Source of the DNA: a virus
Virus record (IMG/VR): IMGVR_UViG_3300042350_001509
Coordinates: 1-21,402 of that record
Length of the DNA stretch: 21,402 nt
Reading direction: 5' to 3' (one strand)
In this document: piece after piece, positions 2,743 through 19,929 of the stretch
Layout: each line of letters opens with the position of its first letter
Position numbering within the stretch: position 1 is the stretch's first letter
Notes under the pieces: model-generated
Databases searched by the model: none
What the model saw: the letters and a program-made list of their open reading frames with translations, nothing else
What the model was told of the DNA's origin: nothing
Program-made: the position numbers and the translations under genes

Positions 2743-5700
2743 ATGCCGCTCTATGAGATCACCGGCCCTGATGGTCGCCTTTATGAAATCGAAGGTCCAG
2801 CAGGCGCAACAAAGGAACAAGTTGTTGCAGCGGTTGTTTCAAAGTTAGGGGGCATGCCTGCCCCTGCACGACCAGAGGGTGGGTTGCGAGGCGCTGTTAA
2901 GAAGGGTACAGAGTCTTTAATCTCAAGCGGGTTGGCAGGTCTTACAGGTGTCATCGACCCTGAGCGTGCAGCGCGTGAAGCACTTGAGCGTGAGCGCAGT
3001 ATTGGGCAGCGATATAAGGACGAGGTTAGTCTTGACGCGCTCAAAGAAAAGTATCAGCAAGAGGGGTTGTTTGCCGCAGGTAAAGAACTAGCACGGCAGG
3101 TGCCGATTGCTGTTGCTGAACAGCTCCCACAAGTTGGCGTTGCGCTTGGCGGCGCTCGGTTAGGTGCCATGGCAGGGGCTCCGCTTGGTCCTGTTGGTGC
3201 GGGTGTGGGTGCGGCGGTCGGTGCGTTTGCGCCATCTTTCCTTCAACAGTTCGGTACCAATCTTTCACGGCAAGCTGCTGAAGGTAAAACCATTGATGCA
3301 GCTTCGGCTGCAACAGCAGCAACCGCACAAGCAGGTCTTGAAACTGCTGCAGGGGCGTTCACCCTCGGTAAGCAGATGGTAGGAAAACTTATTGGTAGAC
3401 CTGCTGAAAAAGCAATTGACTCTGCTGCTGGACGTGCGCTTGCTGAACAAAGCCTAAAACGTTCGCTGGCTACAGGTGCTGTGCGTGCTACGGCTGTTGA
3501 AGTTCCGACAGAAGTTACACAAGCTATGCTTGAGCGTTTGCAAGCAGGACTCCCATTGCTCTCAGATGATGCGATTAAAGAATACGGTGACACGGCGTAC
3601 CAGACAGCGCTTGCATCGCCGGGGTTTGGTGGTGCTGCTCGTGTAGCTGAGCGTAGCGCGGTGCGTGCGCAGGTTGCTGAGGAAGAGTCAAAGAAGCGTG
3701 CAGAAGAACAGCAGCGTCAGGCAGCAGTAGAAGAACAACAGCGGCAAGCAGAAGAGGCTCGCAAACGCAGTCCTGAGTACATGCAGCAGCTCAACCAAGA
3801 GCAGGTGCAGTTAAAAGATGAGATGCGTCAGATCAACGAGTTGTTGAAAGACAAGACGCTCGACCCTGACCAGAAGCTTGAAGCCCAAGATCGTCGTAAA
3901 GATATTGGCAAGCGCTTAAAAGAAATCAATCAAGACATCCGCACGGTGTTCCCTGCACGTCCAGTCAGTGAATTGTTGGCTGAGCGACAAATGGCGCAAG
4001 AAGAAAAAGGTGCGCCTGTTGTTGACGAGTTTGGGAATATTGTCCCTGGGAAGTTTTTGCCTAGAAGTGAAGCTGACGTAGAGGCGCAGGTTGCCCAGGG
4101 TTACGACACAGAAATTAATCGCCTCCGAGCTGCAGAAGAAAAGCGGGTACAAGAATTACAGCTTGAACTGCAAGAAGCGTACCGTCGCACTGTCAGTGCA
4201 GCAGAACGCAAAGACGCAAAAGAAGAAGCTGAGTACAAAAAGCTAATTGCTGACATCTCGAAGAAAGTTGAGCAAGGAAAGAAAGCTTTAGTTAAGTCTG
4301 GCATGTCGGTGGATATGCAAGCACCGTTTGCTGAAGCTTACGACTCCCTTACAGAGGCAGCAGAGCAAGCGCAAGTTGGCACGTACGATGAGTCGCTCGT
4401 TGACCAGATCTTAGAGAAGATTCAGGCTGAACAGCCTAAAGCAACGGTTGAAGCTAAAGGTGAGTTGGCGCTTGAGGGACGTTCTAAAGTTACGGAACAG
4501 ATCCAAGAGCTTAAGAATCAACGTGAGAAAGCTGTTCAAGCACGCGATAAAGAAACGATTGCAAATATTGACGCTCAGGTTGCAGAACTAAGACGCACCG
4601 AAGCTGCTGCCGCACCAGACTATAAAGGCAAACAAGAAGAAGTATTTTTAGATTTAGAAAGCACTGTTGACGACCTCCGTAAACGTCGATACTTTGGCGT
4701 AACCGGGGAGACAGGTGAAGCTTCGTCGTTAGCCAAGTCTCTTCAAAAGAAAGCAACAGCGCTTAAAGGCGAGTACGTTAACAACGTGCTGCAAGAAATT
4801 GCAGAGTCTCGTGCGCAGCAGAAGCAAGTAGGATTAAACAAAGACGAAGAGCTTGCAGTCAGAGCGCGTCTTGATGCTGTGCTGCAGGAATACATTAAGC
4901 GTTCTCAAGCGCTATCGGCAAAAGAAATTGTCGATGGTATGGATCAAGTATTGGAAAAGCAGCGTGAGTTTGCACCGCGTGATGTGAAGGTGCTGACGCA
5001 GTTACAGAACAGGCTGAGGAACAACGCTGACAAAGAACTTGAGTTATCTAACCGTATTGAACGCGAGCCTAACGCAAATAACAAAGCGCAGCTTCAACGG
5101 CAGCTTGATGGCTTATTTAACCAGACCAGCCAGATAACTAATACGTTCTTGCAACGGCTGACAGAACCCCTAAAGGTTCGCACGGTTGAGGTACTAAGAC
5201 GCCCCAGCGATAAACGACCACTCGCAGAACGTCCGTTTGGTGCGCCTAAACGTGCCAGTGATATTTTGCAAGAACAGCTTGCTGAAGTTCGTGCTGAGTA
5301 TATGCAGCCTGAACGTCAAGCTGCGCCACAAGTTTTAAAGACACAGTTTGCAGGTGAAGAAGCTAAAAAAGTTGAAGCTGAACGCAGCACACTGAAACGT
5401 AAGATTGAGGCAGCAGAGAATCAGATCGAGCGTGTGCGCGGCATGGGTGAGTTACAGCCTGCTGTGGATAAAGCGTTTGATACGTTTGAGCGCATAGAAA
5501 AACCCAGCGAAGCGCTTGTAGACTTGGTGCTTGAGCAGACTGACCGCATCCTGCGTGGTACTGATCTACCCTTTAAACCCAGTGCTGATGTTGCACGTCG
5601 GGCGCAGCGCCCAGGTGCACAAAATACGGCTGAGCTGTTACCTCAGATACAGAAACAACTCGCCGCTGAACAACCTGCGCCAGAAGTTGGCGGTCCACAG

Positions 5701-8700
5701 ATGGACTTGTTTGGTGAGAAAGAACTTGAGCCACGGGCGACCATTCGCAAAACGCCAGAAGCGTTCATGCGTTTTCTTAACTCGTTCAAAGTCTCAAGCA
5801 TGCGCAAGAAGCTTGAAGATGCCAAGAAACAGATTGCAGACAACGAGAAAAAACAACAGGATGTTGAGCGTGCATCAAAGCAAAACCTTGATCGGTTAAT
5901 TGACGAGGTAGGAAAAGATGTTCGTAAAACTGCTTTAAAAGTTCAGCGCGATGTTGTTGAGCGTATAAACGCTGAAGGGTTGCGGGATCTTCAAACGCTT
6001 GCTCAGTCTATTTCTCAAGAACTTGCTGCTAAGACACGGCAGTATAAGAACATCGTTGAGAAGGCTGACCGTGCTGAGTACTACATCGCAGACGCAGACC
6101 GCCAAGCGGCTGATAAGTATTTGGAAGATTTGCGGACAGATCTTGCAGCAGTCATGGCTGAGATCAAAGACGCTGCTCCTGCGGCTGAAGATAAGCTGCT
6201 AGCCAACGCAGAGGTCGCGCTTGATAAACGTCTGAACTCTGAAAAAGAGTTGCTTCGCAAGCTTGAAGCTGAACGTGCTGCTAGGCAGGTTAAACCTGAA
6301 TCTGAACAAGCTATTGCACGCCGCAATATTGCCATACTTGAAGCTACTAAACGTCGTATTGCAGACCTCCGTGCTAAGGCTAAACAAGCAACAGAACAGC
6401 GGCTTGCAGGTATGCAAGGTGTGCGTCGCACAACCGAGACAGTTACGGTGCTTACTGAAGTTGGACGCGGTAAGAAGAAACGCCTTGAGCTTGCAGAACG
6501 CGAGCGCAAAGTTACACAACCTATTGGTAAAGGCGCAGAAAAGATTGAGCGTCGGGCTGAGGCGTTGGACCTTTCAAGCACTGCTGCTGAAGCGTATGCA
6601 CGTACGGCACAAGAAGAGAAAGTTCTGTCACCTGCTGAGGCAGCGCAAGCATTGCTGCGTGGCACAAAACAAAGCATAACCGCTACAGGTAATCTTGGCG
6701 GCACTACAGAACAGATACGCAAACAGCGCTTGAAGCCTTTGCGTGGTGGCAAAGCTGAACAAGCCGCTAAGAATATTGCTGAAGCTTCAACACTACGCCA
6801 GCGTGCTGCAGGTAAGAAAGCGCAAACAGATAAAGACTTACTTAAGTTGTTGAAGTCTTTTGAAGAAGGTATGGCACGAGAGAAGGATGACACCGTATTT
6901 CGTGTTGAAGAAACAGGAAACGCTGTTGTAGATCTTGCACAAGCTAAAGAGCGCGTTGATGCGTTTAAGGCAAAGCTGCCAGAAAACGTCAAGTTTGTTT
7001 ACGCTGAGTCTGTTGTTGATGCACCCAAAGCATTTATCCGTGCGCTGTATCAGCAGGGCATGGACATAGACAGCGCGAAAGTTAAGGGTGGTGTGCTGCC
7101 TGACGGTACGATTGTTGTGATCGGTGAGAACCACACCGATATGCTTGATCTTGAAAAGACGTTGGTGCATGAGGTTGTTGGTCACTATGGGGTTGATACG
7201 CTCCTTGGTGAAAAAGGCATGGACAACCTGATTGAGACTGTCAACGCTCAGAAGGGCGGCATGGCTGCGCTTGCAGAAAGCCTTGGTGTTTATGACGCAG
7301 CATTAGGCGCAGCGTTTGGGTTACGTCGTGTTGGTGCGTCTGAAAAAGATCAGCAACGCGCAGCTATGCGCGAGCTTATTGCCCACGTTGAAGAAGCACG
7401 CATCGATGAAAACTTTAAACAAAAAGCACGTCGCTTTTTGGGTGAGTTGATTGGTGCGGTAAAAGCTGCGCTGAGAAAGATGGGGTTAATGACACTGGTT
7501 GAGCAGACCCCCTCCGACATTTATTTCCTGTTGAGGCAAGCTCGTAGCAAAATGGCTGAATCTCAGCCGGGAGCGTACAGAACAGTAGGCGGAGAGGTCG
7601 CGTTCCGTGGACAGACTAGGTACGACGCAAGCGTGCCGGAAGAAGTCATCCGCGCTAACAACAAGGTGGTTGCGGCACCTGCTGGTGTGTTTGATAAGGT
7701 CAAGGCTAACAACTCATGGCTGGCCGTGCGCACACAGTTTATCGACCGCTTCGAGCCTCTGGAACGTGTTGCTGAGCAGATGAAGGATTCACTGCAGGCG
7801 ACGCAGATGATGTATTACTTGCGCATGTACGACCAGCGCATGAGCTTCACAGCCGAGGTCACTAACAATGGACCGCTTGTGCTTGATAAACAGAAGCGTG
7901 CTGATGGGCGTGAAGAGATTGTTGTAAAGAGCAGTGGCACTACGTCACTTAAAGATGTGGCCGATGAGTTACGCAAAGTCACATCCATGAACGCTGATGC
8001 TGCGAACATGACCTTTACAACTTATCTGGCTGCACTGCGTGCAGACCGCGTTGGTATTGACACACTTAACTTTGACCCCTCGCTGACACAAGCTGATCTT
8101 GATGCAGTCAAAGACTTTGTTGCACGTACGCCTGATGTTAAGGCTGCGTTTGAGAAAGCCAGAGAGAAGTACAACGCCTACAACAAAGGGCTTGTTGAGT
8201 TCTTAGTACAGACCGGCGCATTGTCTAAAGACACGGCGAAGAAACTCTCAGAAACAAATGACTATATTCCTTTCTACAGAAAGCAAGGCGGCAACGCAGA
8301 GCTTGTACTAGGTGGAGAGATTGCACCGATCACGGTTGGTAACTTAAAGAATCAACCCTACCTCAACGAGTTAGTAGGCGATAACCGGCACATTCTGGAT
8401 TTCTTTACCAGCTCTGTGCAGAACACCAACATGTTGACAGATATGGCGCTGCGCAACCTAGCCACGCGTAACGTCGCGTTTGGTCTGGGTGAGATGGGTC
8501 TGCTTGAGCGCACACCCAAAGAGATTGAGGCAAACAAGTCTGGCATCCGTAAAGGCAAAGCCAAAGGTGCAGAAGTTATTCGCTTTAAGATTGACGGCGA
8601 GGACTACTACGCTGAAGCCAGCACCGATGCAATTGGCATACCCTCTGACTTGTTAGTTAAAGGGCTTGAAGGTATCTCCATGACGGTGCCTGCAGCCGTA

Positions 8701-10212
8701 CGCATGCTTGGTGTACCTGCACAGATCCTACGTAAATTTATTACACGCAACCCTGTGTATGCGCTTCGACAGATTGTCCGTGACTCTACGGCTGCTGTGA
8801 TGGTGTCTGGCGCTAACATGACGCCAGTGGCCTCGTCGCTAAAAGAACTTGGCAAGATGCGTCAGGGTAAGAGTGAAGGTGAGAAGCTCCTGCAAGAGCG
8901 TGGGGTTCTGGGTGGTCAGGTGCTAACCGGCACGCCTGAAGATCTCTCAAAGATGTTACGCGAACTTGCTGGTGGCGGTAAATCGTGGACAACAGCTATG
9001 GCTAAGCTCGATAACTTAGCTGTCCAGGGTGATGCCGCAACGCGTGTAGTGATGTACAACAGCTTCCGCAAGCAGGGGCTGTCTGATATGGAGGCAACGC
9101 TTGCCACGTTAGAGTCTATGAACTTTAACCGTCGTGGTTTGTCGCCTAGCGTGTACATGCTGTCCATGATGGTGCCGTTCATGAACGCCCAGATCCAAGG
9201 TTTGGATGTGTTGTACCGTGCGTTTACAGGCAAGATGCCGTTTAATCAACAGCTTAAGGTAAGAGAGAAGTTAATCGCCCGTGGCTTGATGCTTGCCGGT
9301 ATAACGATGGCATACGCTGCCATGATGGAGGATGACGAGACGTACAAGAACGCAGACCCCACTGATCGGGCGATGAACTTCTTTGTACACACTCCATTCT
9401 TTGACGAAGCTGTGCGCATACCCATCCCGTTTGAGATTGGCTATATCTTTAAAACATTGCCTGAGATGGTTTACAACACCGCTTTTGGTGATACAGAAAT
9501 CAAACAGGTAGCGCCAGCTATAAGGAAAATTCTTTCAAGCCTTGTGCCTGGAGATATTCCTGCCGGTATCAAGCCAATGATTGAGTTGATGACGAACTAC
9601 TCGTTTTATAGCGGCAAAGCTATTGAGAGCGAACGGGAGAAGGCGCTTGTACCAGAAGAGCGGTACCGTGCTGGAACCTCTGAAGTGTCTAAACTTATCG
9701 GTCAGTTGTTTGGTATCTCACCCATCAAAATTGACTACATGATTCGCGGTTACACCGGAGGTCTGGGTGTCGCTGCTGTCAGCATCGCTAACCCTGTTCT
9801 TGCGGCAGATGAGAAAGTTTCTGCTGAAAAGAGAGTAAGTGAGCTGCCGATAGTTGGGGGTCTCTTCCAACCCAAAGATGCCCAAGGGCTAATAAACTAC
9901 GCTTACGAACTTGTTGGTGACATCGAGCAGCGTCAGCGCACGATAAAGACTATTCAGGAGCGTGGTCGCCGCGAGGACGTGCAGGAGTTTTTGGAAGAAA
10001 ACAGGGACTTACTCAAGATGGCTCCAGCCGCAGGCTCATTTAAGAAGAGGATGGGCGAGTACGCAGCACGTGAGCGGTATATTCGTGATGCAGAGGGTAT
10101 GTCCCCCGCTGAGAAGCGGGAGAAGCTCGACCAGATTAGGGATGCTCGGATCGAATTTGCGAAGAAAATGATAGCCGCTGTCGCTGAAAGTAAACGCCTA
10201 GCTGACCGTTGA
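2743..10212 (+). CDS. Giant large polyvalent protein with HExxGH metallopeptidase-like and LPD38-like regions
   Basis: 2489 residues. The ATG follows AAGGA (2728-2732) and lies 5 bases after the previous stop. Order of parts: residues 1-37, a YEITGPDGRLYEIEGPAGAT module that recurs at the N-termini of phage virion proteins; about 115-215, Gly/Ala-rich hydrophobic segment; about 300-1440, Lys/Glu/Gln/Ala-rich coiled coil; 1440-1560, a globular domain with H1476-EVVG-H1481-YG and candidate third ligand E1544 in RELIAHVEE; about 1620-2000, helical region with NDYIPFYR; about 2003-2250, NPVYALRQIVRDS and LDNLAVQGDAATR, resembling LPD38, with a hydrophobic stretch at 2178-2197. Such polyvalent proteins occur in phages and mobile elements and are thought to enter the host with the DNA. 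No lysozyme or transglycosylase motif is visible. It ends the + strand module. Inference: ejected internal virion protein, possibly with peptidase activity. LPD38 assignment is from memory of the pattern. Confidence 0.85.
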   Translation: MPLYEITGPDGRLYEIEGPAGATKEQVVAAVVSKLGGMPAPARPEGGLRGAVKKGTESLISSGLAGLTGVIDPERAAREALERERSIGQRYKDEVSLDALKEKYQQEGLFAAGKELARQVPIAVAEQLPQVGVALGGARLGAMAGAPLGPVGAGVGAAVGAFAPSFLQQFGTNLSRQAAEGKTIDAASAATAATAQAGLETAAGAFTLGKQMVGKLIGRPAEKAIDSAAGRALAEQSLKRSLATGAVRATAVEVPTEVTQAMLERLQAGLPLLSDDAIKEYGDTAYQTALASPGFGGAARVAERSAVRAQVAEEESKKRAEEQQRQAAVEEQQRQAEEARKRSPEYMQQLNQEQVQLKDEMRQINELLKDKTLDPDQKLEAQDRRKDIGKRLKEINQDIRTVFPARPVSELLAERQMAQEEKGAPVVDEFGNIVPGKFLPRSEADVEAQVAQGYDTEINRLRAAEEKRVQELQLELQEAYRRTVSAAERKDAKEEAEYKKLIADISKKVEQGKKALVKSGMSVDMQAPFAEAYDSLTEAAEQAQVGTYDESLVDQILEKIQAEQPKATVEAKGELALEGRSKVTEQIQELKNQREKAVQARDKETIANIDAQVAELRRTEAAAAPDYKGKQEEVFLDLESTVDDLRKRRYFGVTGETGEASSLAKSLQKKATALKGEYVNNVLQEIAESRAQQKQVGLNKDEELAVRARLDAVLQEYIKRSQALSAKEIVDGMDQVLEKQREFAPRDVKVLTQLQNRLRNNADKELELSNRIEREPNANNKAQLQRQLDGLFNQTSQITNTFLQRLTEPLKVRTVEVLRRPSDKRPLAERPFGAPKRASDILQEQLAEVRAEYMQPERQAAPQVLKTQFAGEEAKKVEAERSTLKRKIEAAENQIERVRGMGELQPAVDKAFDTFERIEKPSEALVDLVLEQTDRILRGTDLPFKPSADVARRAQRPGAQNTAELLPQIQKQLAAEQPAPEVGGPQMDLFGEKELEPRATIRKTPEAFMRFLNSFKVSSMRKKLEDAKKQIADNEKKQQDVERASKQNLDRLIDEVGKDVRKTALKVQRDVVERINAEGLRDLQTLAQSISQELAAKTRQYKNIVEKADRAEYYIADADRQAADKYLEDLRTDLAAVMAEIKDAAPAAEDKLLANAEVALDKRLNSEKELLRKLEAERAARQVKPESEQAIARRNIAILEATKRRIADLRAKAKQATEQRLAGMQGVRRTTETVTVLTEVGRGKKKRLELAERERKVTQPIGKGAEKIERRAEALDLSSTAAEAYARTAQEEKVLSPAEAAQALLRGTKQSITATGNLGGTTEQIRKQRLKPLRGGKAEQAAKNIAEASTLRQRAAGKKAQTDKDLLKLLKSFEEGMAREKDDTVFRVEETGNAVVDLAQAKERVDAFKAKLPENVKFVYAESVVDAPKAFIRALYQQGMDIDSAKVKGGVLPDGTIVVIGENHTDMLDLEKTLVHEVVGHYGVDTLLGEKGMDNLIETVNAQKGGMAALAESLGVYDAALGAAFGLRRVGASEKDQQRAAMRELIAHVEEARIDENFKQKARRFLGELIGAVKAALRKMGLMTLVEQTPSDIYFLLRQARSKMAESQPGAYRTVGGEVAFRGQTRYDASVPEEVIRANNKVVAAPAGVFDKVKANNSWLAVRTQFIDRFEPLERVAEQMKDSLQATQMMYYLRMYDQRMSFTAEVTNNGPLVLDKQKRADGREEIVVKSSGTTSLKDVADELRKVTSMNADAANMTFTTYLAALRADRVGIDTLNFDPSLTQADLDAVKDFVARTPDVKAAFEKAREKYNAYNKGLVEFLVQTGALSKDTAKKLSETNDYIPFYRKQGGNAELVLGGEIAPITVGNLKNQPYLNELVGDNRHILDFFTSSVQNTNMLTDMALRNLATRNVAFGLGEMGLLERTPKEIEANKSGIRKGKAKGAEVIRFKIDGEDYYAEASTDAIGIPSDLLVKGLEGISMTVPAAVRMLGVPAQILRKFITRNPVYALRQIVRDSTAAVMVSGANMTPVASSLKELGKMRQGKSEGEKLLQERGVLGGQVLTGTPEDLSKMLRELAGGGKSWTTAMAKLDNLAVQGDAATRVVMYNSFRKQGLSDMEATLATLESMNFNRRGLSPSVYMLSMMVPFMNAQIQGLDVLYRAFTGKMPFNQQLKVREKLIARGLMLAGITMAYAAMMEDDETYKNADPTDRAMNFFVHTPFFDEAVRIPIPFEIGYIFKTLPEMVYNTAFGDTEIKQVAPAIRKILSSLVPGDIPAGIKPMIELMTNYSFYSGKAIESEREKALVPEERYRAGTSEVSKLIGQLFGISPIKIDYMIRGYTGGLGVAAVSIANPVLAADEKVSAEKRVSELPIVGGLFQPKDAQGLINYAYELVGDIEQRQRTIKTIQERGRREDVQEFLEENRDLLKMAPAAGSFKKRMGEYAARERYIRDAEGMSPAEKREKLDQIRDARIEFAKKMIAAVAESKRLADR
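7168..7191 (+). other. HExxGH metallopeptidase-like motif in the giant protein
   Basis: Codons 1476-1483 read HEVVGHYG. The spacing is H-E-x-x-x-H with Gly before the second His, unlike the usual HExxH of zincins but like the HExxGH of M49 dipeptidyl peptidase III. A downstream glutamate (E1544, codon 7372-7374) in a helical segment is a plausible third ligand. The same motif type is common in large polyvalent phage proteins. Confidence 0.6.
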
Positions 10213-13231: not shown

Positions 13232-13414
13232 TCAGAACAAGGGTAACTGCCGTCCGTCTTTAGGTTCAGCAATGTCAGGGATGTGCTGCTCCATGTATTG
13301 GGCCATACGTCGAAGAAGCTCTTTCAAAAAAGCAGGTTCGACTTCTTCCCAATGTATTTCACAGTAGTTCAAAAGCTCCGCATCCGTCAGGCTTGTAGGT
13401 TGTATTCCTCGCAT
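13232..13414 (-). CDS. 60-residue phage protein ending in QLPLF (possible sliding-clamp binder)
   Basis: The ATG at 13414 is chosen because GGAG lies at 13421-13424 with a 6-base gap; an ATG four codons earlier (13426) lacks a good ribosome site. The body is helical and acidic, starting LTDAELLNYCEIHWEEVEP, then LLRRMAQYMEQ, a pattern seen in small unannotated phage proteins. The last five residues are Q-L-P-L-F, directly before the stop. This fits the bacterial beta-clamp-binding consensus QLxLF, which is often C-terminal in polymerases and repair proteins. It overlaps the HTH gene by 28 bases and precedes the primase-helicase. Function unproven; clamp binding is an inference from five residues. 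Confidence 0.7.
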   Translation of the reverse strand: MRGIQPTSLTDAELLNYCEIHWEEVEPAFLKELLRRMAQYMEQHIPDIAEPKDGRQLPLF

Positions 13415-13665
13415 ATGTGTCTCCATGCGTGATCGGCTGTTGGGTGTCTTTCAAGTATGTTGATTAGCTGCTGCACGCGTGAGCGATATGCGGGAGTTAC
13501 TTCAACACCAGATAGCCAGTTGTAAACGGTTTGTCGCGTTGCGCCTGTAAATTTTGAAATACGCAACACAGAAAAGTCTCGGTGCACCGCCCACTTTCCC
13601 AGCCTTGAGCCGAGAGTGCGGGGGGCGTGTTTAACAACGTTTTTAGTTCGGTCAGAATAGGGCAT
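13387..13665 (-). CDS. HTH DNA-binding protein, Cro/XRE-like
   Basis: 92 residues, basic. A helix-turn-helix is visible at about residues 32-53: SVLRISKFTGATRQTVYNWL followed by SG, where ATRQTVYNWLSG is the usual recognition-helix form of XRE-type regulators. A C-terminal helix (RVQQLINILE) may support dimer formation. The ATG at 13665 has no clear Shine-Dalgarno sequence, and a GC-rich hairpin stands 9 bases upstream, so expression may be low or controlled. It lies between the SSB-like gene and the 60-residue gene inside the replication run. Similar short HTH proteins occur in aquatic phages. Likely target: a phage promoter or operator near this cluster, unknown. No inducer domain or cleavage motif of a CI-like repressor is present, so it is more Cro-like. 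Confidence 0.8.
   Translation of the reverse strand: MPYSDRTKNVVKHAPRTLGSRLGKWAVHRDFSVLRISKFTGATRQTVYNWLSGVEVTPAYRSRVQQLINILERHPTADHAWRHICEEYNLQA
13421..13424 (-). promoter_or_regulatory. Shine-Dalgarno GGAG deciding the start of the 60-residue gene
   Basis: GGAG formed by the upstream ATG and its next codon (ATGGAG) stands 6 bases before the ATG at 13414, favouring the shorter product over the ORF that begins at 13426. Confidence 0.55.
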
Positions 13666-17695: not shown

Positions 17696-17979
17696 TAGAA
17701 CCTCGCTGATTTAACGATCTGGTGCATTGTCTCTGCGAAGTGTTCGACAAAGCGTTCGTCGTTGGAAAGTTTAGGGCGCACGTGATCGAGGATGACATGG
17801 GTCAACTCGTGCCAGAAAGTCAGCGCACGTTCGTTCTCGGTTGTATGCTTTGTCTTGTTACTTGTTGCTATAACAATCATATTGTCCACGGTGTAACCCG
17901 TGGTGTATGCCTCATCAACATGTTGCTGCTTGATGATGTACCGCCTTTTACCTACACGTATTGACTTCGGTATGTCCAC
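17695..17979 (-). CDS. Minimal zinc metallopeptidase (ImmA/IrrE or SprT-like fold)
   Basis: 94 residues, GTG start at 17979 with AAGGAG six bases upstream; an ATG at 17981 is out of frame. A short beta-rich N-terminus (KRRYIIKQQHVDEAYTTGYT) precedes the zincin signature TFWHELTHVILDH with H57, E58 and H61. The likely third ligand is E79 in RFVEHFAETM, spaced as in ImmA/IrrE-type peptidases. The protein is little more than the catalytic core, and there is no HTH domain. In phages such proteins are usually annotated as IrrE- or SprT-like; substrates are unknown, but cleavage of a host repressor or of a DNA-protein crosslink are known roles in the wider families. It lies between DNA polymerase and nuclease genes, so action on replication or host regulatory proteins is a reasonable guess. 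Confidence 0.8.
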   Translation of the reverse strand: MDIPKSIRVGKRRYIIKQQHVDEAYTTGYTVDNMIVIATSNKTKHTTENERALTFWHELTHVILDHVRPKLSNDERFVEHFAETMHQIVKSARF

Positions 17980-17991
17980 ATGACTCTCCTT

Positions 17992-19929
17992 TTATTTAGC
18001 GTCACCGTAACGCTTTGCTGAACTAACTTCTGCTGCCAGCGGTATCCCTGGCATGTACTTCGGCTCCATCGTCATCTGCTCCAAGACCCACTGCTCTGCC
18101 TCTTGGACATAGGCATCTGGCACGATGACTACTTCTTCGTCATGCACGGTTAAACACACTGAGTACCTCTTTTGAGTTCTCAGCATCCCATCAGTCATCA
18201 CAATACGAGCTAGCGCCTGAACGATGTTTTCGGTCAGCTTGCCACCATACAGCTTGGTCTCGTCGGGGCCATACACCACCCCCTTCTCTTTTGAAACTTT
18301 GATGTCAGGATAGCGTAACTTCATGCCGTTTGGCAAGAGAATTTCTTCTTTCCTGAACGTGATGCACTTGTGCTTGTACTCGTTACCCTCCAACAGACAG
18401 TGATTTATCGCTGACTGACACAGCGCCCAGAAGTCCGTCACCGGCTGCGCCGCTCTGCGGTATATCTCGATGATGGCTTTAGCTGCCAAGCAGTGGTAGA
18501 ACAACTCCTCCTCTGTACATGTGTGGGGGATCTTCTCAAACTGCTTCATCAGCACCTTATCTTTGAGGAACGCCCTAGCTGCGACAGCAGATACACCAAC
18601 TTGTTTAGCAAACTTCTTGTCGTACATCATGGGCGGTGCGCCGAGGAACCCCGTCAACAACTGCGCCGAGAACGACGCCCACCCCATGCCGTAGCCCGCA
18701 CCGAGTAGCGCTGACTTGGCAGACTGCCGCAGGTCAGGGTGTGACTCTTTACTCAGGTTGGGTATGTTGAACATCTGCGCACCGAACGCAGCGTATGCGT
18801 CCTGCCCACTCCTGAAGATGTCTAGGAGCGCGTCGTATCCACTGACCCATGCGAGGACTCTGGGTTCAATCTGGGAGAGGTCACAGACGACGAGGCTGTG
18901 TCCTTCGGGTGCCAGAATGGAACGACGTAAGAAAGATCCGCGTTTGAGATTTTGGAGATTGAGCCCTGAACCTCGACTCGCTGACCATCTGCCCGTGTGA
19001 GCCCCATAATAGTTAAGGGGAACGGGCAGTGCGCCTCTTGACGCAATATCAAGGAAACGCTGGGCACGCGTTCTTTCAAGGGTTGACTTGACTTTAAGAC
19101 GTGCTTCACACAGCAGGGCAACGTCCTCCCGCTCTGAATTGAGCAGAGCCTGAAACAGTGCGTCGTTCTTAGCAAACGCATAAGTTCGTCTGCCGGTGGT
19201 CTTGCTGAGTTTTGTGGGGGGTTCCACGTCCATACGACGGAGAAGATCTGCGAATCGATCATTACTCGCCAATGCTCCGTCATCCACTCCGAGTCGTCCC
19301 AATATTTCTCCACGCTTGCGCTCCTCTTCATCAATGGCTTGCCTCAACATCTCAGTGTCCAACATCAGCCGAGGTATTGTGAACATCTTCAGCGTCATGT
19401 CGATCAGCTTGAGTTCTTTAGCAGGGAACCCATCAACCAGACGGTTGAACACCTGCTCACACAGGAACGTGTCATGCGCACAGTACTCAGCAAGTTCTTT
19501 CTCTATCTCAGGGGTAAGCTCGACCAGCCCGTCCGTGCTGTGCACAGCTTGACCTTTAGGCGGCAGACCAAACTCATCTGCAAGTTTTGCCAAGCTGTTG
19601 CCAACCTCCACACCACGCAGCGCTCGTGCCATGGACAGTGAGTCGAAGATCAGCGCAGGATTGGCCCCATACACCCACGCCAAGATAGCCACGTCAAACT
19701 GCGCGTTGTGCGCTAGCACGGCTGTGCTCGACCAATCAGTCGATGCTACGAACTCAGGAATATCTTTGTGAGAAATCCATACTGGATCATCGTCTGAACC
19801 CAGTTCTTTAACACACAGCCCGAACGCTTTGAATCGTTTATCCCTGATGTACTGCTCTGTCGTCAGCTTACTCAGTGTGTACTCTTTCCTGCTCCAACGT
19901 GTTTCAAAGTCTATGACTAGCGTTTTCAT
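17992..19929 (-). CDS. polA: Family A DNA polymerase with 3'-5' exonuclease
   Basis: 645 residues. Exonuclease domain: Exo I IDFET (D7, E9), Exo II LAHNAQFDVA (D79), Exo III YCAHDTF (D153), all acidic residues present, so proofreading should be active. Polymerase domain: HTGRWSASRGSGLNLQN at 311-327; motif A CDLSQIEPRVLAW (D350, E355, R357; Pro replaces the usual Leu of QIELR); motif B RQSAKSALLGAGYGMG from R401 with K405, Y413, and L409 at the position of E. coli Phe762 / T7 Tyr526; motif C LTVHDEEVV (H596, D597, E598). No 5'-3' exonuclease domain, typical of phages. Residues 416-500 between motifs B and C are long. ATG at 19929 overlaps the previous stop as TGATG. This is the replicative polymerase of the phage; the partner is probably the primase-helicase at 10347-13217. 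Confidence 0.97.
   Translation of the reverse strand: MKTLVIDFETRWSRKEYTLSKLTTEQYIRDKRFKAFGLCVKELGSDDDPVWISHKDIPEFVASTDWSSTAVLAHNAQFDVAILAWVYGANPALIFDSLSMARALRGVEVGNSLAKLADEFGLPPKGQAVHSTDGLVELTPEIEKELAEYCAHDTFLCEQVFNRLVDGFPAKELKLIDMTLKMFTIPRLMLDTEMLRQAIDEEERKRGEILGRLGVDDGALASNDRFADLLRRMDVEPPTKLSKTTGRRTYAFAKNDALFQALLNSEREDVALLCEARLKVKSTLERTRAQRFLDIASRGALPVPLNYYGAHTGRWSASRGSGLNLQNLKRGSFLRRSILAPEGHSLVVCDLSQIEPRVLAWVSGYDALLDIFRSGQDAYAAFGAQMFNIPNLSKESHPDLRQSAKSALLGAGYGMGWASFSAQLLTGFLGAPPMMYDKKFAKQVGVSAVAARAFLKDKVLMKQFEKIPHTCTEEELFYHCLAAKAIIEIYRRAAQPVTDFWALCQSAINHCLLEGNEYKHKCITFRKEEILLPNGMKLRYPDIKVSKEKGVVYGPDETKLYGGKLTENIVQALARIVMTDGMLRTQKRYSVCLTVHDEEVVIVPDAYVQEAEQWVLEQMTMEPKYMPGIPLAAEVSSAKRYGDAK

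Follow-up and report, generated by a model that had tools for sequence, protein, structure and literature searches.

A 60-residue protein of uncultured phages carries a putative clamp-binding motif at its C terminus and is encoded beside the primase-helicase gene

The window, that is, the whole 21.4-kb IMG/VR virus record analyzed here, encodes a 60-amino-acid protein that likely binds the beta clamp of its host through its C-terminal tail, as judged from comparison of its sequence with those of relatives. We consider clamp binding likely because the terminal motif is conserved and follows the published rule, occurs at none of 664 background C termini, and lies in a tail that is predicted to be free, and because no clamp gene was found in these phages. 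The protein belongs to a family that is found in uncultured phages and is uncharacterized; clamp-binding tails themselves are of a known kind.

Position and start of the small gene

The small gene belongs to a minus-strand replication cluster encoding, in this order, a family A polymerase, a RecB-type nuclease, an HNH-type protein, an SNF2 helicase, a 301-aa protein, a 92-aa helix-turn-helix (HTH)-type protein, the small protein, and a primase-helicase-like protein (Table 1). A sequence-only reading of the window had proposed that a 60-residue protein ending exactly in QLPLF adjoins the primase-helicase, and the open reading frame (ORF), the Shine-Dalgarno-like element, and the conserved start all bear this out. 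QLPLF makes up the last five residues (RQLPLF-stop), with TGA directly after, and the ribosome-binding site of the primase lies 3' of the small-gene stop, free of overlap with the tail codons. The ORF measures 60 aa from ATG 13414 and 64 aa from the in-frame ATG 13426. Because the outer start position is occupied by GTG in relatives L031, L040, and L043 and by CTG in L045, and because GGAGA stands 5 nt before the inner ATG, the sequences identify ATG 13414 as the conserved start of the gene. The same cluster contains a 94-aa protein (window 17698-17979, minus strand) with weak matches to zinc metallopeptidases, the M48 match lying just over its cut-off.

Table 1. Features of the small gene and its surroundings (window coordinates)
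Feature	Position	Strand	Remarks
60-aa protein gene, stop included	13232..13414	-	Conserved in 25 IMG/VR loci; by position in 103/105 primase loci
Terminal QLPLF codons, clamp-binding-type motif	13235..13249	-	Consensus according to PMC11139829 (available part)
Shine-Dalgarno-like GGAGA	13420..13424	-	5 nt upstream of ATG 13414; read from sequence
Small HTH-type protein, 92 aa	13387..13665	-	Overlaps small-gene start by 28 nt; HTH_23 E 0.0057, below cut-off
Primase-helicase-like protein (DUF927), 956 aa	10347..13217	-	ATG 14 nt past small-gene stop
Family A DNA polymerase of the window phage	17992..19929	-	Profile matches
Predicted helical body, residues 6-44 (helices 11-20, 27-44)	13283..13399	-	Block mean pLDDT 95-96 for residues 11-40
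C-terminal tail, residues 45-60, no predicted secondary structure	13235..13282	-	Block mean pLDDT 71 (41-50), 65 (51-60)

Relatives and the conserved gene slot

Scanning IMG/VR with patterns that reached QLP yielded 25 loci at 73 to 100% identity to the small protein, and a profile scan whose patterns took in the tail gave the identical 25. QLPLF is kept in 24 of 24 complete close relatives, including 73%-identical ones in which the preceding residues differ; this close clade alone proves little, since most of the small protein is conserved there. The adjacent primase, used as the query, recovered 48 loci, among which full-length matches were as low as 43% in identity, and a primase profile found 373 relatives, the best 80 of which were kept. 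The HTH-primase slot was read at 105 loci, some of them sharing a contig. At 103 of the 105, the small gene lies directly before the primase (101 found by pattern, L126 and L088 by eye); it is absent at L052 and L082, where the HTH gene and the primase are kept. At 101 of 101 loci, the distance between the end of an HTH-type ORF and the start of the small gene is no more than 80 nt. The body of distant rows retains 19 to 46% identity to the window protein in a 73-row alignment, in which M1, E13, and L14 never vary and P6, E32, and R36 rarely do.

Among isolate phages, tblastn of the window protein and of the L095 protein against 50,697 phage records returned no match. Pseudomonas phage Rollin and Rhizobium TM3_14A are distant isolates whose primases are related; a motif scan of the regions fetched from them revealed no terminal motif, and the 104-aa protein upstream of the Rollin primase is likewise without one. 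The KPP25 region, which was fetched for its related polymerase, has one ORF with QLKLW near its end. When genomes were searched for a host, the primase profile found no relative, and the body profile found one contig, L257, with a QLDLFLKN tail, binned in an Armatimonadetes metagenome-assembled genome. This contig is phage-like and may represent a host hint or a binning error; it is too weak to assign Armatimonadetes as the host.

Variation of the terminal motif

The published clamp-binding rule reads Q-aliphatic-x-[L/M]-[F/L] or Q-aliphatic-x-[L/M]-x-[F/L]; position 3 is free, positions 1, 2, 4, and 5/6 count, and position 2 is comparatively tolerant (available part of PMC11139829). The tails of the family include QLPLF, QLSLF, QLELF, QLDLF(L/K/Q), QIDLFK, QLRLF(D/E), QMRLFD, QLKLFL, QLELPL, and QLPLPF, together with degenerate forms altered at position 2 (QRDLF, QPELF, QAELF, QRPLF), so that, at the level of sequence, variation across the family obeys this rule. 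The sequence signature of clamp-binding-motif (CBM) ligands is present in the window protein as QLPLF and in canonical form in 69 of the 94 distinct relatives.

These 94 distinct proteins comprise 68 with a canonical pentapeptide, 1 with a canonical hexapeptide (QLELPL), 6 with a degenerate QxxLF, and 19 without the motif; L126 (QLPLPF) and L088 (no canonical motif) are additional to them. Counted per locus, the 101 pattern-found genes divide into 73 canonical pentapeptides, 1 hexapeptide, 5 degenerate forms, and 22 without. Patterns restricted to the body, which did not touch the tail, gave 79 complete genes among their best 80 loci, with 74 canonical, 5 degenerate, and none lacking the motif, a proportion valid for that clade and not for the whole family, since the best 80 loci lean towards query-like rows. 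Weighted by relatedness, the shares in the 73-row set are 0.44 canonical, 0.09 degenerate, and 0.46 none. The sequence-only reading had looked to an alignment of homologues for conservation of the tail: this held for the close relatives and for the 69 canonical proteins, and failed for the 19 without the motif and the 6 degenerate ones. It had also named homologues varying in or lacking the last five residues as evidence against its proposal, and part of the family consists of such homologues, as the motif is not universal and changes about six times on the primase tree.

A canonical terminal motif was found in 0 of 664 distinct C termini of other ORFs of at least 150 aa in the fetched phage DNA. 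A broader end-motif pattern matched 5 of 710 called ORFs in eight large relatives, 4 of the 5 being the small gene, in a count from which the greedy ORF caller had dropped the G004 copy of that gene. Synonymous drift is evident in 85 distinct genes whose products carry Q..LF close to the C terminus: Q is encoded by CAA in 48 and CAG in 37, position 2, when Leu, by six codons, and L4 by five codons. Position 3 is occupied by D, E, P, R, S, or K. Rows for the codon and motif-column tables were picked by a Q..LF-type pattern, which in itself accounts for part of the invariance of Q, L4, and F5 but not for the codon drift or for the variation seen at positions 2 and 3. Conservation thus exceeds the background (74 canonical and 5 degenerate of 79, versus 0/664), yet the motif has been lost in several deeper lineages. 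The proposal that the protein ends in a clamp-binding-type pentapeptide accordingly gains support from its sequence: the motif is under selection, matches the published rule, and has no counterpart in the background.

Gain and loss of the tail

On a FastTree phylogeny of 78 primases, from which rows without the small gene were omitted and for which long-branch warnings were given, at least 6 changes are required to explain where the motif is present, with canonical and degenerate forms scored together against none. The body is retained in several lineages without the tail. L063, whose QLELPL we take to resemble the hexapeptide of Hda, sits among six rows that lack the motif and whose bodies are nearly the same as its own, which argues that the tail is a module that can be lost or regained. 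The bodies of L063 and of L056/L066 are nearly identical and their ends read KDPRQLELPL and AEDDLK, respectively; the tail differs as a unit. We asked whether the motif had moved elsewhere in motif-less phages. No canonical end motif is present in any called ORF of G006, G008, or G011, so no replacement was seen.

Predicted structure and family matches

An AlphaFold2 model built from the 73-row alignment (mean pLDDT 84) consists of two helices, residues 11 to 20 and 27 to 44, with no secondary structure past residue 44. QLPLF is predicted to lie in a free, low-confidence tail outside the helical pair; burial of the motif inside the fold, which had been named as a possible objection, is not what the model predicts, and accessibility as expected of a CBM ligand is indicated by the placement of the motif in an unstructured tail.

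The window protein matched no Pfam, PHROG, NCBIfam, or PDB profile. The best profile match of the 73 relatives was PHROG 9780, of unknown function (E 0.0026), the best E values in the PDB were 0.47 by profile search and 0.6 by Foldseek, and the helical-pair fold had no match at E of 0.001 or below in PDB or BFVD. The best BFVD match, A0A6J5N792, is a 58-aa protein of an uncultured Caudovirales phage (E 0.034, probability 1.00) and is probably another member of the family.

Clamp and polymerase content

Beta clamp domain PF02768 was found in 0 of 15 records and PF00712 in 0 of 12 relatives; the T4-type clamp PF02916 was also found in 0 of 12 relatives, with cellular control genomes that are weak controls for it. 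Two clamp searches of the window itself each gave 0/1. A family A polymerase is present in 9 of 12 relatives as well as in the window, which upholds the description of the phage as having a family A polymerase and no detected clamp of its own. In the tail-less relative G006 (~61 kb), which encodes a family A polymerase, none of the called ORFs ends in a canonical motif, suggesting that the clamp link is dispensable in this phage; more generally, the existence of tail-less lineages indicates that such a link is not essential for this replication system. In G006 (L159-L162), the polymerase is divided between the two termini of the 61,405-base contig, as it would be if a circular map had been cut open; this suggests a circularly permuted, near-complete genome.

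Possible roles of the small protein

There is about an even chance that the small protein is a tiny adaptor between phage replication proteins and the host clamp. Its N-terminal helical pair (residues ~6 to 44) would dock on a phage partner, for which gene order points to the primase-helicase or the overlapping HTH protein as most likely, and its flexible C-terminal tail would insert QLPLF into the peptide pocket on the beta clamp of the host. Gene order further suggests that a phage that has a family A polymerase but lacks a clamp may in this way tether its replication proteins to a loaded clamp of the host. We prefer an adaptor to an inhibitor for two reasons: the gene keeps a constant position within the replication cluster, and the body persists where the tail is missing, as it should if the tail is a detachable arm of an adaptor. 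Evidence against an adaptor comes from the 19 of 94 proteins without a tail motif and the 6 of 94 with a degenerate one; weighted by relatedness, motif-less proteins are about as many as canonical ones (0.46 versus 0.44).

Instead of tethering, the small protein might fill the pocket of the host clamp and so put a stop to polymerase loading, repair, or replication in the host, in the style of SocB or phage inhibitors, which we regard as rather unlikely. A very small protein whose motif is free at the C terminus would be plausible as such a competitor, SocB inhibits through the same pocket (available part of PMC9690074), and a phage clamp inhibitor exists in Twort Gp168, though it is listed as a DNA-channel binder (available part of PMC11139829). 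However, the gene is locked between the HTH gene and the primase and does not lie in a pool of small early genes, a block of the host clamp would hurt a phage that needs this clamp, and several lineages keep the body without the tail, which is unexpected for a pure pocket blocker. Retention of the body after tail loss also suits a protein whose function resides in the body, e.g., as a partner or antagonist of the overlapping HTH regulator, with the tail only localizing it to replicating DNA and tuning phage gene control to replication. The closeness of the end of an HTH-type ORF to the start of the small gene, seen at 101 of 101 loci, agrees with such a function, but L052 and L082 keep the HTH gene and primase without the small gene, and we judge it unlikely.

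The end might not be a clamp ligand at all, being another C-terminal signal (a protease tag or SSB-type tip) or a product of shared ancestry without function, and the 25 of 94 distinct proteins in which the motif is absent or degenerate would fit this. It is nevertheless improbable in view of the synonymous drift under Q, the empty background (0/664), the absence of an acidic SSB-type tip, and the up to three residues that follow the motif in many relatives (QLDLFL, QIDLFK, QLRLFD, QLDLFLHN). Such residues show that F need not be followed immediately by a free carboxyl end, and the SSB-tip and C-terminal degron readings were dropped for this reason.

If the adaptor is taken further, a dedicated 60-aa protein might enlist the host beta clamp as a processivity or docking ring for the family A replisome of a widespread lineage of uncultured phages, much as T7 polymerase is paired with thioredoxin; in many members, a second clamp motif in a giant polyvalent-type protein would supplement it. 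This extension is possible but doubtful. To our knowledge, little has been established about how clamp-less family A polymerase phages interact with the host replisome. Our literature searches brought up no paper that we recognized as dealing with such a phage adaptor. If true, a compact conserved adaptor whose clamp tail can be detached would make a simple system for tests, for which the natural family offers bodies with canonical, hexapeptide, degenerate, and missing motifs. The clamp, which is studied as an antibacterial target, would also gain a pocket-binding ligand made by phages.

Comparison with known clamp ligands

Hda carries an AAA+ domain, which the small phage protein lacks. This regulator attaches to the clamp through a short motif in its disordered N terminus (available part of PMC11139829). 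Insertion sequence (IS) transposases (IS1634 and others) contact the host clamp through a C-terminal QLxLF of weak consensus that is thought to have arisen many times, and their binding has been shown (available part of PMC4549789). The small protein resembles them as a mobile-element protein with a short C-terminal beta-binding-type motif; unlike these full enzymes, as that source describes them, it is a putative binder of 60 aa, has no catalytic domain, and is encoded beside a primase-helicase. As in E. coli Pol II (C-terminal QLGLF) and Pol III alpha, the motif ends a flexible tail (available part of PMC11139829), but these are large enzymes and the phage protein has no enzyme domain.

The SocB toxin of Caulobacter also has the usual clamp motif; in the available part of PMC9690074, it is a shown inhibitor with an antitoxin partner, whereas a clamp role for the small protein is suggested by its motif. 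Twort Gp168 is likewise a small phage protein aimed at the host clamp, but it is listed for the DNA channel and not for the peptide pocket (available part of PMC11139829). The pocket motif, set against this description of Gp168, suggests that the two proteins would use different clamp sites. Staphylococcus aureus phage 77ORF104 is another small phage protein aimed at the host clamp.

A second clamp-type motif in the giant protein

A second clamp-type motif, QMDLFGEKEL, is encoded at window 5698-5712 (plus strand), at residues 986 to 990 of a 2,489-aa giant protein (2743-10212), in a linker ahead of RxTPExF. Giant proteins of G003, G005, G006, and G008 have no canonical pentapeptide ending in F. 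QMDLF is present in 10 of 10 loci (L258-L267), one of the search patterns being the motif itself, and the corresponding motif elsewhere is QMELF in L036, QLELF in G001 and G002, QLEMF in G004, and QYSLF in G011.
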